Position numbers and translations under genes: made by a program. From a virus: DNA of 22,273 nucleotides. This document shows, piece by piece, positions 3,086 through 12,761 of this stretch (within the stretch, counting starts at the first letter, position 1; each line of letters opens with the position of its first letter). The notes beneath the pieces were generated by a model that saw nothing but the letters and a program-made list of their open reading frames with translations, was not told the origin of the DNA and ran no database searches. Where the stretch lies: IMG/VR virus record IMGVR_UViG_3300033388_004178, positions 881 through 23,153 of that record. One strand, written 5' to 3'.

Positions 3086-3664
3086 GGTTTCTTGTGCTTC
3101 GTTCAGGGCCGGCATGTTCAGGGCCGGGTTATTGGTCAGGGCCGCGGATTTGAACTGTTCGACGATCCGCGTCTCGGGGTCTGCGAAAAAAACGGGGCTG
3201 ATGTACCGGAACAGGCGCTTCGCAACAAAGCGCGCGCCCGGTTCGGTCCATTCGACATCGGCGACGACAAAACCGTCCTCGATCCGCATCGTGTCGGCGC
3301 TGAACCATCCTGCGGCCGCGCCGGCCGGAAAATCATCGTCGCCGGATGAAAACGGGTTTTTGCCCTCGGTGTCGTGCCGCAGGTCAAGCGGCATTCCCCC
3401 GGGGTAGTCTGCGGCCGTGCGTGCTCGGATGCGTTCGAACTCGCCCTCGGGCAGCCGAAAAAAGCGGCCGTCTCGAGCCTCGACGTCACCGATCGGCGCC
3501 AGCGGGATCGTGGTCGGTGCGGACGCCTCGCGCACCTCGCCTTCGCCGTCCTGAAGAGCAAACAGGGCAAGCCCGCGCCCAGCGAAATCGGCGCGGGTAA
3601 GCTCGGGGCGTGTCGGCTCGGACGGCACGGGGTAAGTGTGACCGGCCGTGCGCGGTTGTGTCAA
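2543..3664 (-). CDS. Head maturation protease and scaffold, Mu gpI-like
   Basis: The 373-residue protein has the two-part layout of the Mu gpI family. Residues 1-180 contain the protease-like part: PLDLRHDTEGKNPF near residue 91, PAGAAAGWFS near 112, VEWTEPGARFVAKRLFRYISP near 137-157, and AALTNNPALNM near 174-184. The second half is a long Ala/Glu/Lys-rich helical region, as in scaffolds. In Mu a shorter scaffold (gpZ) starts inside the same frame; here the Met before SHEQD (ATG at 3085) is a candidate. The assigned start is a TTG at 3664 without a clear ribosome-binding site; a GTG at 3628 is an alternative. It sits directly upstream of the decoration and capsid genes, overlapping the former as ATGA. 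Confidence 0.88.
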   Translation of the reverse strand: MTQPRTAGHTYPVPSEPTRPELTRADFAGRGLALFALQDGEGEVREASAPTTIPLAPIGDVEARDGRFFRLPEGEFERIRARTAADYPGGMPLDLRHDTEGKNPFSSGDDDFPAGAAAGWFSADTMRIEDGFVVADVEWTEPGARFVAKRLFRYISPVFFADPETRIVEQFKSAALTNNPALNMPALNEAQETMSHEQDTTGLRSLFGLAKDTTKEDLFAHCVALKEQAAKLDPALEAMARNAAELEATKVSLAAAHEKIEAMSAEQAETKAQAFAARRSAVIDEAMKAGKCVPAQVETYTAMAQDEDGLTRLAELFAKTPSLGLTTVKEEFTQAPTGTDQSYLAGFKTPEAFAKAAGMSIEIAQMLFERQQK

Positions 3665-3692: not shown

Positions 3693-4541
3693 TTATCGTA
3701 TATTCTCGATCCGGCCGTCGACGCGCCAATTGTAGCGAATCCCGTTCGCTTTCCCGGTCCATGCGTCCGGAAGCGGCATGCCATCGGCGATTTTGAAATC
3801 GGGGGGGCCGACGTCGAGGCCGAGCTTGTCGCGCGCCCACTCGCCGCAGTTCAGCCAAATGCGTGAGCCTGGATCGCTAACTCGGTTTTTCGTGGCCTGG
3901 CGGTGGGCGTGAATGAAGGCGATCTCACCCTCGTTTTGTTCGGCCTGTTCGCAGTAGTACCGGATCAGTAGCCTGCAAGCCTCGAGTTCTGCATCGGTGG
4001 CCTCGCTGATGTGCTCGTGCGCCGTGGTCTTTCCGGCGGCGATGCGCTGGCGGATCGATTTCGGAAGCCAGGTCGTCAGGACGCTTTCGTCGGCCGCCGT
4101 CGCGGGGTCATCCTCGACGCCCGCCGCACGACAGCAGACCTCGATCCCGATGTCGCGCCGGTTGAACCCGTTTGCGTGGTACATGTAATCGGTCGGATCG
4201 TGCAGGAGGATGATCGTCGCGTCCTCGCCGTTTGGGCCGCCGTCCATCACGCACGCGTGAACGGGCACATTCAGGCATCTTTCGGGGTCGGTGATATTGA
4301 CGGCCGTCTGATGCAGCGTGATCCCGGTGACTTTCGACCACGGCCTCGACCCTTTCGAGCGGCCCCGGCTTTTCGTCTTTTTGCGCTTGCGCCAGTCGAT
4401 CCAGTGAACCGAAAACTCGGGCGCGCCCTCGTCGAGTTCATCGGCCTTTTTTGGCGGCGGTTCGATTGACTCCTGCGCGGCTTTGAACTGCGCCCAGAAG
4501 CCGATCAGGTACTCGGTGAAATCCCAGCGTGATCCGAACAT
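3693..4541 (-). CDS. N-acetylmuramoyl-L-alanine amidase (amidase_2 type), endolysin or virion lysin
   Basis: This 282-residue enzyme should cleave the bond between muramic acid and L-alanine of peptidoglycan using zinc. Expected ligands are visible: His77 in GITLHQTA, His213 in FIHAHRQATKNR, and Asp223 in VSDPG; the RRDIGIEVCC strand is also typical. The first 70 residues (PPPKKADELDEGAPEFSV, then a Lys/Arg-rich stretch) are unlike the catalytic domain, and no signal peptide is seen. I chose ATG at 4541 because it has AGGAG four bases before CACC-free spacing typical of this phage; a GTG at 4565 would overlap the gpF-like stop as GTGA but lacks a ribosome-binding site. It lies between head genes rather than beside the holin candidate, so a virion-associated role is possible. 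Confidence 0.87.
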   Translation of the reverse strand: MFGSRWDFTEYLIGFWAQFKAAQESIEPPPKKADELDEGAPEFSVHWIDWRKRKKTKSRGRSKGSRPWSKVTGITLHQTAVNITDPERCLNVPVHACVMDGGPNGEDATIILLHDPTDYMYHANGFNRRDIGIEVCCRAAGVEDDPATAADESVLTTWLPKSIRQRIAAGKTTAHEHISEATDAELEACRLLIRYYCEQAEQNEGEIAFIHAHRQATKNRVSDPGSRIWLNCGEWARDKLGLDVGPPDFKIADGMPLPDAWTGKANGIRYNWRVDGRIENIR

Positions 4542-4561
4542 GGTGCTCCTGGCGCAGCCTA

Positions 4562-5290
4562 TCACGCGAGGATCGGTTCAGCCCTGCAGCGGCAATTCGG
4601 GGGCACACCGGGCGGCCCGTCATATGGCTCCTCGTCGGGCGGATCGTCCCATGAAAACACCTGCAAATGCCGCTGTTCATGCAGTGGTCGCACGATCGGG
4701 TCATCGCGCGTGATCCACCGGTATTCGAAAAGGCCGTTCGCCAGGTTGTACACCGCAGCGAATTCGGTGTTCATGCTTTCCGACTCCCACGCCGCGATCC
4801 GGTCGGCCCGGTCTCGGGTCATCTCCCAAACAAGATCGATCTGCACTAGGGCCCGATCGATCCGCTCGTCGGTGGTGCCCGAGGTCTCGAGGGCGGCGAT
4901 GACCTTCTCGATCAGTTGCTCGGTGGCCTTTTCTCGGATGCTTTCGACTAGCTCGGCTTGACGCGCGCCGACGCTTTCGGCCGTGGGACCGGTGTCGGCC
5001 GCCTCTGCGCGTGCCCGGTACTCGGCTGCCTTGGCCGGGTCATCAGTCAGCCCCTCGATCTGCTCGGTGAACACGTCGAGGGATACCCGCTGCATGCGCT
5101 CGGTGTGCACGTCTGCAGCCTCGAGGGCGGACGTCTGCGGCTGACCGGCGTTGCCCCTGCCCGCTCGTCGAATGGCCCGTTCGATGTCGTTTCGGCTCGT
5201 CTGCGTCATCGCGCCGACCGAGTTCACCCGAAACAGATCATCGATCTGGCTCACGAGTTCCTCGCCGACCCTGCGCTCGTGATCGAACAC
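4562..5290 (-). CDS. Minor head morphogenesis protein, Mu gpF-like
   Basis: The C-terminus carries the family signature: YRWITRDDPIVRPLHEQRHL near residues 191-210, FSWDDPPDEEPYDGPPG near 213-229, and the closing PPNCRCRAEPIL with its Cys-Arg-Cys. Members of this family (Mu gpF, SPP1 gp7) are minor capsid proteins that bind the portal region and take part in head assembly. The 242-residue length is shorter than many family members, which usually have a longer N-terminus. The only standard start is a GTG at 5290, without a convincing ribosome-binding site. The frame stays open upstream for about 20 more codons of protein-like sequence (ending RVYARALRRY) but contains only a CTG and is closed by a TAG, so the true start is uncertain. 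Confidence 0.88.
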   Translation of the reverse strand: MFDHERRVGEELVSQIDDLFRVNSVGAMTQTSRNDIERAIRRAGRGNAGQPQTSALEAADVHTERMQRVSLDVFTEQIEGLTDDPAKAAEYRARAEAADTGPTAESVGARQAELVESIREKATEQLIEKVIAALETSGTTDERIDRALVQIDLVWEMTRDRADRIAAWESESMNTEFAAVYNLANGLFEYRWITRDDPIVRPLHEQRHLQVFSWDDPPDEEPYDGPPGVPPNCRCRAEPILA

Positions 5291-5331
5291 GTACCGCCGC
5301 AGGGCGCGAGCGTAGACACGCGAGGCCCGAT

Positions 5332-5514
5332 CTACTCGATCGTTGTTCCCGCGAAAGGGCTGCTAGCCCATGCCTCGGCGCGGGCCTGTACCTCGGAAGC
5401 CACAAAGCGCGAGCGGTTGCCCTGGCGGTATAGCGTCAACTCGCCGGCCGAAACGAGGCTGTAAACCTGCGTCACGCTCATTCCGAGCCGGTCGGCGGCC
5501 TGGCGTGCGCTCAT
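5332..5514 (-). other. Helix-turn-helix domain (excisionase-like) encoded at the portal 3' end
   Basis: This in-frame segment encodes the last 60 residues of the portal gene. It has the two-helix pattern SARQAADRLGMSVTQVYSLV followed by the wing-like LYRQGNRSRFVASEVQ, as in helix_turn_helix_17 proteins that bind DNA or act as recombination directionality factors. An ATG starts it, with AGGAGG very close upstream (two bases), a spacing that is short for efficient initiation. It is either a portal fusion or a nested gene; the sequence alone does not decide. Confidence 0.5.
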
Positions 5515-6846
5515 GGCCTCCTCGCCGTCTGGTAGGTCCTCCGGTTCGCCCTCGGGGCTTTCGTCGACCTCGACATCGACAGCGCTCGAGGCGGTGCCCG
5601 ATCCGAGGACCTCGTCGCCCTCGGCCGGTGGCGTCAGGCCAAAGCGCTCATAAATCTGCGCATGCGAAACGGGCAGACCGCGATCGATGAAAGGAACGAG
5701 CGACTCGGCGAGCGCCTGCAGGTCTTCGGGTTCTGAAATGTCGAACGCGAAAACGGGAAGCGAAACCTCGAGGCCGAAATTCAACTGAACCAGCGGCGTG
5801 AGGAGGTCGCCGTTGATCGTCTCGGCGAGGGCCTTTGCGTCTGCGTTTCGAATGTCGGATCGGACCTCGCCATGCACTTTCGCCTGCGCGAGGCTGGATC
5901 CGTCCTCGGTCGTCATCGTCTGACCGAGCACCACTTTCGAGATCTCCTGATTGAAAAACCGCTCGGCCTTTTCGTAGAAGTCGCCGTGCGTGGTCGTGTT
6001 GATCCCGAGGATCTCGAGTTCGGCCGCCTTGCTGATGATCATCGACGCATCCGAGCCGAGGTTTTGCAGGGCGTCGAGTAGCGCGTCCTTTTCTTCGTCG
6101 GTGGCGGCCTCGTTGTACTTGCCGTAACGCAGCGGCATTCCGAACACCTCGGAAAACGCCATCCAATCCTTCAGGACGAATGACTTGCAGATCCACAGCC
6201 CCATGACGGTGTATGCCAGGCCGGCGCGGGGGATCTTGCCGCTTTTGAGTTTCGGAATGTGCGAGACGAATTTCGACGGGGTGAGGGGTACGCCGTAGGT
6301 GGGCGCCTCGTCGGTGCGCAGTTGTACCCGCGTCATCGTCTCGAAATCAAAGCTGAAATACCGCGGATCGCGGTGGTGGTACTTGCCGGGGATCATGCGC
6401 CCGGGGTTCGCGTCGAGGGACCACTCGATTTCGGTCACCGAGTACCCTTTCGCCAGGCCGTCGAGGGCGTCGAAAAGCATCGCCTGAAACCCTCGGCGGC
6501 CGAATGTCTCGGTCACAAACTCGGCGATCTCGACGTCGCGCGGATCATCGCTCGCCGGGGTCACGTGCCAGGGCAGAGCCAAAACGCCCATCTTTCGCGT
6601 CTGCAGGACGCTGCGGTAGTGACCGTCCTTCTCTTCGACCTGTTCGGCCGCCTCCATGTACTGCTGCGGGGACCACTCGGCCGCGCGACGCATGATCTCG
6701 CCGAGGTAACCGGGGGTGATCCCGTTTGTAATGAACCGCTGAAACGGGCTGCGGATCGAGCCTCGAGACTCCTGCGAAATCTCGCCCTGCAGCTCTGACG
6801 TCGAAACGGTTTCGATCTCGCCGGTGTCGTTTGTGACCTCTGCCAT
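5332..6846 (-). CDS. Portal protein, Mu gp29-like (DUF935), with C-terminal helix-turn-helix domain
   Basis: Residues 1-415 look like a DUF935 portal: TPGYLGEIMRRAAEWSPQQY near 44-63, EEKDGHYRSVLQTRKMGVLAL near 72-92, YSVTEIEW near 134-141, FVLKDWMAFSEVFGMPLRYGK near 221-241, and KVVLGQTMTTEDG near 302-314. Portals form the ring through which DNA enters the head. An acidic linker (about residues 425-444) then joins a separate domain at 445-490, with ARQAADRLGMSVTQVYSLVS, then GELTLYRQGNRSRFVASEV. This matches the MerR/excisionase-like helix-turn-helix_17 pattern. An ATG at residue 445 follows GAGGAGG by two bases, so a separate 60-residue product is conceivable. The start overlaps the terminase stop as TGATG with GAGGG upstream. 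Confidence 0.9.
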   Translation of the reverse strand: MAEVTNDTGEIETVSTSELQGEISQESRGSIRSPFQRFITNGITPGYLGEIMRRAAEWSPQQYMEAAEQVEEKDGHYRSVLQTRKMGVLALPWHVTPASDDPRDVEIAEFVTETFGRRGFQAMLFDALDGLAKGYSVTEIEWSLDANPGRMIPGKYHHRDPRYFSFDFETMTRVQLRTDEAPTYGVPLTPSKFVSHIPKLKSGKIPRAGLAYTVMGLWICKSFVLKDWMAFSEVFGMPLRYGKYNEAATDEEKDALLDALQNLGSDASMIISKAAELEILGINTTTHGDFYEKAERFFNQEISKVVLGQTMTTEDGSSLAQAKVHGEVRSDIRNADAKALAETINGDLLTPLVQLNFGLEVSLPVFAFDISEPEDLQALAESLVPFIDRGLPVSHAQIYERFGLTPPAEGDEVLGSGTASSAVDVEVDESPEGEPEDLPDGEEAMSARQAADRLGMSVTQVYSLVSAGELTLYRQGNRSRFVASEVQARAEAWASSPFAGTTIE

Positions 6847-8309
6847 CAGAAAAACCCTCGCTTTTTCTTCTTGGGCACTCTAGCAGACGAAATCCGCCCA
6901 GCGCCGGCACGGCTGACGGTGTACATCAGGCACACCGCCACCGCGAAATCCCCGTGACGATAGGCCCCGCGGGCCCTTGTGCGGCGTTTTGCCACCCTTG
7001 GCTTCCCGTCGATCAACTCGACGAGCCGAAAATCGCCGAGGCATTCATCGTCAGCGGGAAGGTCGACGTGGCGCTCGGTGATCGCTTTGCGCAGTTCTGG
7101 CCATGACTGATCGTGCCACGTAGGCCCGAGGATGAACCCCTCGATCTGCGAGCCGAAACGCTCGGCGCCCCACTCGAAAAGGGCCTGACCGTTCCCGGTC
7201 TTGTCGACCGCGACCTTCCCGAGGCGCGGAGTGTTTCGAACCACGGCCTCGAGGATTTGCTCCTGCTGCGCTTGGGGCATGTTCCGAAGCTCGAGGGTGA
7301 TCCGCGCTTTTCGAACCTCGCCGAAGATCTGCGCGATGACCCACGAACACATATCCGACGATCGGCCGTAGTCAATCCCCGCAAAGCTCCCGCGCTGCGG
7401 GTTCAGCTTTTTGAGTTCGGGCAGGAGGACGGCCTCGATCCATGCCTCGCACTCGGCGGCGCGCTTGCCCCGTGAGAGTTCGAACCACTCGGGCCGCTGT
7501 TCCCACCTGATGACCTTGCAATCCTCGGCCCTGCATCGGTTCACCGCGTCGGGGTCAAAGTAGCCCGCGCCCTGTTTCGACGGAACGCAATCGAGTTCTT
7601 CGGCCGCCGCCTCGCCGTACGATGCACGAAGGTCGGCCTCCCACTGCTGCGCCCATTCGTCAGAGTACCGCTCGCCTTTCATCACGGCGATCCGCTCGGC
7701 CAGGCCCTGATCGATCGCGTCGCCCAGCGGGATCGAATGCAGCGACCATCCCGGGCGCGTTCCGTCTCGGACCTCTGAAAGTAGGACGTTGAAGTGGTTT
7801 GTTTCGCCGTAGTGCGTCGAGATCAGCGCGATGCGACCGCCCCACATCAGGAACGCCGTCGCGGCCTGCATGATCCCCTCGAGGTCGTCGACAAACGCGG
7901 CCTCGTCGATGATCGCAAACCCCTGCTTTCCGCGAAACTTGCGAGGCCGACCGGCGAGGGCATGGATCCGAAAGCCCCCCTCGAATTCGATCACGAGGAT
8001 TTTTACCTTGGCCTTACCGGGTCCCGTGTCTTCCTCCTCGACCCACACCTCGCCATGCAGCGCGCCGATCGCCTTTGCCCAATCCTCGCAATCTCGGATG
8101 AATTCCTTGGCGTCATCCTCGGCGTACGTCATGAAATAAACGTCCATCCCACCGGCCCCGGGCTTTTCGGTGGCGACGATGACAGCCTCGGCCGCGCTGG
8201 CCCACGTGACGCCCGTGCGCCTCGACTTCTCGCAGATTTTGACGGGCGCCCGATCGATGATCCACCGGCGCTGATACGGCAGCAGGATCGCGGCTTTCGG
8301 GACGCACAT
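6846..8309 (-). CDS. terL: Terminase large subunit (Mu gp28-like)
   Basis: The 487-residue ATPase/nuclease packages DNA into the prohead. The Walker A-like motif is CEKSRRTGVTWA near residues 26-37, the Walker B is FAIIDEAAFV with Asp135-Glu136, and a coupling-type motif LISTHYG follows near 162-168. The RNase H-like nuclease half shows GIDYGRSSD with Asp313, AVDKTGNG with Asp369, and HGDFAVAV with Asp454. The C-terminus is a basic KKKKR tail. The frame is open 43 codons further upstream, but those codons only mirror the DUF1353-like gene. I start at ATG 8309, which shares a TGATG with that gene's stop. The portal gene follows with another TGATG overlap. Confidence 0.95.
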   Translation of the reverse strand: MCVPKAAILLPYQRRWIIDRAPVKICEKSRRTGVTWASAAEAVIVATEKPGAGGMDVYFMTYAEDDAKEFIRDCEDWAKAIGALHGEVWVEEEDTGPGKAKVKILVIEFEGGFRIHALAGRPRKFRGKQGFAIIDEAAFVDDLEGIMQAATAFLMWGGRIALISTHYGETNHFNVLLSEVRDGTRPGWSLHSIPLGDAIDQGLAERIAVMKGERYSDEWAQQWEADLRASYGEAAAEELDCVPSKQGAGYFDPDAVNRCRAEDCKVIRWEQRPEWFELSRGKRAAECEAWIEAVLLPELKKLNPQRGSFAGIDYGRSSDMCSWVIAQIFGEVRKARITLELRNMPQAQQEQILEAVVRNTPRLGKVAVDKTGNGQALFEWGAERFGSQIEGFILGPTWHDQSWPELRKAITERHVDLPADDECLGDFRLVELIDGKPRVAKRRTRARGAYRHGDFAVAVCLMYTVSRAGAGRISSARVPKKKKRGFF

Positions 8310-8731
8310 CAGGGCACCGGGATCGCAGTGGTGGGGGCGACCTCGAGCTGTTCTTTCGTGGCGTGGCGCTTTCCGAACACGCGCAGCGCCCACACATACA
8401 AACGGGCGCGCCCCCTCGGCGTCCCGAGTTTTCGGCAATGCTCACCGAACAGCCGGTCGATCCGGCCTCGCAGGTTCAGCGGTAGCTGATCCTCGCGCAG
8501 CATCTGATAAAAGGCGTCGTGAACCAGCGACGCGCCGAGGTTTTCGGCCGTGTCCCTGACGCCTCCGCTCGTGCCATCCCACGCGTAACCCGAGCGGATC
8601 CACAGCATCCCTTCCCCGGTCAGGCGGTAATAAGCCGCCTCGACAACGTGCCCACGGATCGGCGTCAGGACGGCGTAATCCTCACGGGTGCGCCACCGAT
8701 AGGGGCTTAGACACTGGATCTCGAGGCTCAC
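8309..8731 (-). CDS. DUF1353-like phage protein
   Basis: This 140-residue protein has the DUF1353 core: IRSGYAWDGTSGGVRDTAEN near residues 45-64, then a helix GASLVHDAFYQMLREDQLPL near residues 66-85, and the helix RRIDRLFGEHCRKLG-like segment before a long C-terminal helix RLYVWALRVFG. Its biochemical function is not established; members are common in phages near lysis or structural genes, and some authors have suggested a tail or inner-virion role. I chose GTG at 8731, which forms GTGA with the upstream stop; the preceding open codons are shadow. The stop is shared with terL as TGATG. Confidence 0.75.
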   Translation of the reverse strand: MSLEIQCLSPYRWRTREDYAVLTPIRGHVVEAAYYRLTGEGMLWIRSGYAWDGTSGGVRDTAENLGASLVHDAFYQMLREDQLPLNLRGRIDRLFGEHCRKLGTPRGRARLYVWALRVFGKRHATKEQLEVAPTTAIPVP

Positions 8732-11929: not shown

Positions 11930-12256
11930 TCACCGTCGCTTGGCCCGGGCTGGTGCGCCATGGTGGGCGATGCGCTGATCGATTGCTCGGATCAGGTTGT
12001 CGTGATGCTGCTGCGCCCGGTCTTGTCGGCGCTTCTCGGCCTCGACCTTTTCAGCTTCGGCGGCCGCCTCGAGTTCATCGCGCTTTCGCTGCTGTTCGGC
12101 GTAGATCGGCGCCATGGCCTCGGCGTTGATCTCGGCGTACAGCTTCGGGTCGGTTTTCGCAGCCTTGCTCATCAGGGCCAGGTCCTCGCCCGTGGCGCAG
12201 TTTGTCGCGCGTCGGGTGATTGCGGCTTTCAGGGTCTCGCGTTCAGCTTTCGTCAT
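11930..12256 (-). CDS. Small coiled-coil protein of unknown function, next to terS
   Basis: The 108-residue product is almost entirely charged helix. It opens TKAERETLKAAITRRATNC and continues with a long coiled-coil-like stretch (YAEQQRKRDELEAAAEAEKV near 51-70, then EKRRQDRAQQHHDNL), ending in a basic HGAPARAKRR tail. I do not recognise a family. It overlaps the small terminase gene by 14 bases and is therefore probably translated with it, so an accessory packaging or DNA-binding role is possible. It is the last gene before about 400 bp holding the tRNA-like structure and a terminator. There is no membrane segment, signal peptide or cysteine pair motif beyond one Cys. Confidence 0.7.
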   Translation of the reverse strand: MTKAERETLKAAITRRATNCATGEDLALMSKAAKTDPKLYAEINAEAMAPIYAEQQRKRDELEAAAEAEKVEAEKRRQDRAQQHHDNLIRAIDQRIAHHGAPARAKRR

Positions 12257-12710
12257 CGTCTTTCGCTTTCGTCGCGTCGAGGGCCTCGAGGCCGAGCGCT
12301 TTCAGGGCGTAGGAGCGGCGCGCGTCCTCGGTCCCGTCATCGCCCCCGGCGAGGTCTTTCGGGGTTACTACGGTGTGGGTCGACTTGTCGCCCATGTCCG
12401 CAAGGTGTTTCGATAGATGGATCAGCACCGAGGCGGCACCCTTGGCCTCGGGGTTCCGGACGAAATCGAACATCAGGTCGACGACCTCCTCGCCCCCCTT
12501 GGCCTTGCCAGTCTCGCGGGCGAGATCGATCACTCCCTTGGGATCGTCCTTTCGCCAGCGGATCAGGGTCTTTTCGGCGACCCCCAAAAGGCCGGCGGTT
12601 CGCTTCCAACTGAACCCCATGCGGCCCGCGGCCTCGACGACGCCGAGGATTCGCTTGCGTTCGCCCTCGCTTTTGCTCTGCCATCCCGAACCGGGTTCAT
12701 TCGCTGTCAT
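12243..12710 (-). CDS. terS: Terminase small subunit candidate (helix-turn-helix)
   Basis: The 155-residue protein has an N-terminal helix-turn-helix: ERKRILGVVEAAGRMGFSWK near residues 15-34, then RTAGLLGVAEKTLIRWRKDD. This is the DNA-recognition layout of phage small terminases. A helical middle follows (EEVVDLMFDFVRNPEAKGAA, SVLIHLSKHLADMGDKSTHT), and then an acidic tail. Small terminases bind the packaging site and hand DNA to the large subunit. I chose ATG at 12710 because GAGG lies seven bases before it; an ATG at 12731 would add seven residues. It lies 3.9 kb upstream of terL, separated by the fibre block, an unusual gap for this pair. The assignment rests on the motif and location. 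Confidence 0.72.
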   Translation of the reverse strand: MTANEPGSGWQSKSEGERKRILGVVEAAGRMGFSWKRTAGLLGVAEKTLIRWRKDDPKGVIDLARETGKAKGGEEVVDLMFDFVRNPEAKGAASVLIHLSKHLADMGDKSTHTVVTPKDLAGGDDGTEDARRSYALKALGLEALDATKAKDDDES

Positions 12711-12761
12711 ACGCGGACCTCGCGCAGTCATGCTATCGCGCCCCCTTCGCGCGGTGTGCGC

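Follow-up and report, generated by a model that had tools for sequence, protein, structure and literature searches.

The window, meaning the whole 22,273-nt stretch of DNA analysed here, covers the greater part of an uncultured virus record of 23,153 bases. A head module on its minus strand encodes a terminase, a DUF935 portal, a MuF-type minor head protein, an amidase, and a Mu-like protease. The features around the portal/MuF junction are listed below.

6846-8438, minus strand: terminase of the head module
5332-6846, minus strand: DUF935/Portal_Mu portal, 504-aa zero-frame product (PF06074, E 7e-101; PHROG 113 portal)
5374-5514, minus strand: HTH_17/excisionase-like domain, portal residues 445-491 (HTH_17, TIGR01764, AlphaFold2)
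5363-5365, minus strand: -1-frame TAG stop immediately before the heptamer; all four relatives conserve it
4562-5362, minus strand: SPP1 gp7/Phage_Mu_F-like minor head (MuF) protein, in the -1 frame relative to the portal
5353-5359, minus strand: putative slippery heptamer C_CCT_TTC (X_XXY_YYZ) in the portal frame, identical in relatives L178, L179, L180, and L181
5291-5352, minus strand: -1-frame coding stretch before the first possible MuF start, conserved as RGN-DR-DRA--YA--L--Y
5328-5342, minus strand: possible stimulatory hairpin CGATC-GAGTA-GATCG, located 10 nt past the heptamer and overlapping the portal stop codon (tentative)

The PF06074 match covers an ordinary portal core (residues 65-404) and places the protein in its family; the reading frame closes with a TAG codon at 5334-5332. 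The family and the gene order terminase-portal-MuF-protease are those of the systems that pair a DUF935/Mu gp29-type portal with a Mu gp30 (F)/SPP1 gp7 protein. Those relatives have a conserved C-terminal helical domain in the portal and a MuF start near the portal stop, whereas the window has an HTH-like tail and a MuF frame that lacks its own start. Elsewhere in the window, a small minus-strand ORF at 12243-12731, which weakly resembles HTH_23 and has a homologue in L179 (420-998), is a candidate small terminase far from the large subunit. Between 12890 and 14040, four consecutive small minus-strand ORFs end in one 25-bp repeat, ATCCAGGCGCTAGG(G/A)GGTGGGGAGT, which gives them identical C-termini (IQALGGGE). 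This repeat contains a Shine-Dalgarno (SD)-like stretch, overlaps or abuts the start of the next small ORF, and occurs in four copies against zero expected, resembling a duplicated stop/RBS/start coupling element.

The closest phages, L178 to L181, were found through a terminase search, and their portals are 50-56% identical to that of the window (55% for L178). Together with the window they form a clade of five records and four distinct genotypes, all uncultured, with L179 and L180 a near-identical pair. The last stretch of the portal, PFA-T--E-stop, is kept by all clade members. No relative was found with a single-protein MuF query, a search for the junction DNA pattern across IMG/VR returned the same four records only, and zero further members were recovered with MuF and portal clade profiles or among about 780 sampled bacterial genomes. 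The amidase gene lies directly 3' of MuF in the window (3693-4565), L178, and L181. An unrelated ORF of similar size occupies this position in L179/L180 (8797-9774 in L179), a probable lysin swap. In L181, the MuF frame is broken near codons 124-141 (3450-3500), which points either to an error in the contig or to damage to the gene itself.

The identity of the MuF protein was supported by a PF04233 match of 39.0 bits (cut 29.6, E 1.5e-9), while TIGR01641, with a cut-off of 39.65, scored 38.8 bits in the window, 40.1 in L178, and 46.8 in L179. Among the predicted viral structures of BFVD, the MuF model matched minor head proteins over its full length and also parts of portal proteins of 696 and 817 aa; a fold search of the PDB returned helical bundles only. 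A separate idea, that the usual portal tail domain has been displaced and now forms the N-terminal portion of MuF, found no support, with weak hmmsearch matches and an hhalign probability of 0.4%.

We observed that MuF in this phage group has no start codon where one would be expected. At 181 of 210 DUF935 junctions, a start codon is available by 30 nt past the portal stop. Within the clade, the first ATG, GTG, or TTG of the MuF frame lies +41, +50, +62, or +74 nt after the stop, at non-homologous positions, and in the window it is the GTG at 5290 (residue 25). No near-cognate start upstream of these codons is common to the clade members. The stretch that precedes them nevertheless looks like coding sequence: its differences across three lineages fall 8/13/26 on codon positions 1/2/3, and its pN/pS is 0.2-0.6 in the MuF frame, compared with mostly >1 in the other two frames. 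This pattern of selection indicates that the stretch before any MuF start is translated in the MuF frame. In the predicted MuF structure, residues 7-43 form one continuous helix (pLDDT 82-97), the first half of which is encoded by the start-less stretch. Therefore, initiation at GTG 5290 would cut this helix in the middle.

These observations bear directly on an alternative in which MuF has its own initiation, coupled to termination of the portal, at an internal or non-canonical codon (GTG 5290, another near-cognate codon, or an ATG at 5095), with the heptamer a by-product of overlapping codons. Coupled starts in overlapping genes are the rule among relatives, and candidate codons are available: the window has its GTG, and all four lineages share the ATG, which lies at MuF codon 90 and could provide an additional short MuF product. 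However, codon 90 has no SD before it, the earlier candidates are at different positions from one relative to the next with no shared near-cognate codon upstream, and purifying selection in the MuF frame extends upstream of every canonical start and into a helix that such initiation would cut. We therefore regard an independent start as unlikely. The simplest account is that ribosomes leave the portal frame through a -1 slip and so reach the MuF frame.

A candidate site for such a slip is present at the required place. The portal frame contains the heptamer C_CCT_TTC, placed 28 nt ahead of the end of its stop codon; the window and its four relatives agree in both frame and distance. The MuF frame, open for 266 codons, opens only after the conserved TAG 3 nt before the heptamer, and the -1 frame reads the heptamer bases as CCC TTT. 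Sharma et al. (PMC4066793) include C_CC.U_UU.C in their list of motifs that frameshift at a high level in E. coli. As a control, we inspected 71 unrelated -1-overlap junctions and found an X_XXY_YYZ heptamer in the overlap in only 4 (6%), all of which also give the next gene a start codon. A +1 shift was rejected because MuF sits in the -1 frame. One further CCCTTTC, near the portal end of L045, where the usual portal tail is also absent, was set aside as a coincidence, the next gene there being an unrelated ORF with its own ATG.

DNA identity across the clade peaks at the junction, reaching 84-86% at -45 to -1, compared with 34-60% just upstream and about 50% further downstream. Part of this peak needs no frameshift signal, because a double-coding overlap itself raises DNA conservation, and the excess of identical synonymous codons at the overlap was marginal per pair (Fisher p 0.02-0.11). 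Hairpins are predicted in the window and its relatives with the portal stop codon in or beside the loop, at a slightly long spacer of 8-10 nt from the heptamer; their stability does not exceed that of shuffled sequence (z -0.2 to -0.8). Inspection of the clade by eye revealed no conserved upstream SD-like stimulator. Stimulatory elements are not always found in prokaryotic frameshift cases (PMC4066793).

We consider it highly probable, from the sequence comparisons, that a programmed -1 frameshift at C_CCT_TTC produces a minority portal-HTH-MuF fusion and is the main or only route to the start-less MuF. Ribosomes finishing the portal would slip back one base at the heptamer and continue into MuF, yielding a product of about 761 aa (portal residues 1-498 followed by MuF residues 4-266). 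The majority of ribosomes would not slip and would produce the 504-aa portal, whose C-terminus is the HTH-like tail. The HTH-like module would thus be present in both products, positioned between portal and MuF in the fusion. This junction to the next gene, which we regard as the main feature of the locus, was absent from an earlier sequence-only reading of the same DNA, which had centered on the portal tail.

That reading had proposed that the portal carries a C-terminal excisionase-like helix-turn-helix domain, and here profile searches and structure prediction agree with it. HTH_17 scored 29.3 bits against residues 445-491 alone (cut-off 27) and 25.4 bits in the whole protein, while TIGR01764, "excisionase family DNA-binding protein", scored 33.4 bits alone and 29.0 in the whole protein (cut-off 28.8). 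AlphaFold2 predicted a helix-helix-two strands-helix order for residues 442-494 (pLDDT about 66-73), a winged-HTH-like arrangement. Because the domain alone scores above both cut-offs and the predicted fold is that of a winged HTH, the resemblance is more than chance. The domain shares sequence and predicted fold with the excisionase-type DNA-binding domains, but it differs from them in being fused to a portal, in having no basic residue in its recognition helix (SVTQVYSLVSA), and in being divergent or lost in relatives.

To place this tail among other portals, we compared it with 176 other DUF935 portals, which came from IMG/VR, bacterial genomes, and phage records. A profile built from the C-terminal regions found a helical C-terminal domain of ~90 residues in 173 of them; the three exceptions are L079, where the contig end cuts it, and L045 and L160, which have short tails. 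This usual domain lies outside PF06074 and is not required for membership of the portal family. In the window portal it scored 2.2 bits and is absent, with the HTH-like tail in its place. None of the 176 portals has a resembling tail, and a query with the tail itself found no fused relative in IMG/VR or phage records. Two other variations were seen behind the portal core of DUF935 proteins. The closest portal outside the clade, L018 (1353-3260, 45% identity), has ~80-100 extra residues between the core and the usual C-terminal domain, which makes the region after residue 415 look like an insertion hot spot, and many DUF935 portals, including L032, L033, L053, L109, and L136, have Cys-x2-Cys zinc-finger-like motifs between the same two parts.

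Within the clade, the portals of L181 and of the near-identical pair L179 and L180 carry a divergent version of the tail, so the fusion that had been suspected in the window has counterparts in other DUF935 proteins. In L178, the recognition helix and wing are lost, while the first helix and the last residues remain. Judged from these sequences, the HTH fusion is real and shared among the clade, yet its DNA-reading part is not kept in every member. This limits how far the tail can be read as a working DNA-binding module that recognises the packaging site or the packaged DNA end, a role that would be compatible with a frameshift. The window domain is above both the HTH_17 and the TIGR01764 cut-offs with a predicted winged-HTH fold, and some form of the tail is retained in three relatives, but the copies of L179 and L181 score under the HTH cut-offs, the recognition helix of the window has no basic residue, L178 has the junction without recognition helix or wing, and the separate HTH_23-like ORF at 12243-12731 is already a candidate small terminase. 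We consider such recognition unlikely, and a DNA-binding role for the tail is doubtful. DNA binding is probably not essential, because the copies in three relatives are divergent and L178 has lost most of its own. Since L178 has nearly lost the tail, we take it to be an accessory linker or docking module at the portal C-terminus and not an essential DNA-binding device.

The sequence-only reading had also suggested that a 60-residue excisionase-like regulator or recombination directionality factor could be translated separately from the Met at 5514. Both this Met, exactly at the start of a domain that matches TIGR01764, and the AGGAGG upstream of it do exist. The spacing does not suit initiation: ribosome-binding sites are normally ~5-9 nt from the start, and the gap between AGGAGG and the ATG is 2 nt in L181 and in the window (where it consists of CC), while in L179 GAGGAG touches the ATG. 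We take the 2-nt gap as an argument against a nested gene. The same AGGAGG letters also form the Glu-Glu codons of an acidic linker, the start is absent in L178, and the Met lies inside a head operon, which together leave a nested gene very improbable. Finally, a sequencing or assembly error behind the fusion or the frame break, conceivable for an uncultured contig and with an apparent frame break later in the MuF ORF of L181, was refuted by independent assemblies and deserves next to no credence, because L179, L180, and L181 share the tail in separate metagenomic records and the same -1 junction occurs in four genotypes from separate records.

Returning to the frameshift, several known systems resemble parts of what we propose. 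In SPP1, the portal gp6 binds gp7/MuF strongly and brings few copies into procapsids (PMC6316719). Single-frame portal-MuF fusions occur in Microbacterium phage subclusters EA3, EA5, and EA8 and in cluster EB (PMC7302621). In those phages, as in the fusion proposed here, portal and MuF are covalently joined, but every portal is fused, whereas here only a minority of portals would be fused, in a proportion set by how often ribosomes slip. A slip near the gene end with an extended minority product is likewise found in the lambda gpG/gpGT tail chaperones, in SPP1 gp17.1/17.1*, and in the major head protein of phage A2, although those are tail or capsid genes and the present site is at the portal/MuF junction. 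Literature searches aimed at such a junction surfaced frameshifting in other genes only (tail chaperones, tail tube, capsid, and a hydrolase). No report of frameshifting at a portal/MuF junction was found in the open-licence papers searched, which does not by itself prove novelty.

MuF/gp7 proteins are found at the portal in few copies, and to our knowledge there is little explanation of what keeps their number so low. We infer that fusion and normal subunits could co-assemble in the 12-subunit portal ring, with the slip rate determining how many MuF copies stay at the portal and enter the head. With moderate confidence, we favor a hybrid ring with a covalent HTH-MuF extension on a few of its 12 subunits, the amount of MuF held and delivered per virion then following from the slip rate. 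Gene callers would place the MuF start wrongly in this window, at GTG 5290, and overlook the fusion. If the proposal is true, frameshifted portal-MuF subunits would offer a simple, testable answer to the low MuF copy number, and a portal ring would be able to mix two products of one gene. The junction would then represent a new location for phage recoding and a new way of tethering a minor head protein, in a few copies, to the DNA gate.
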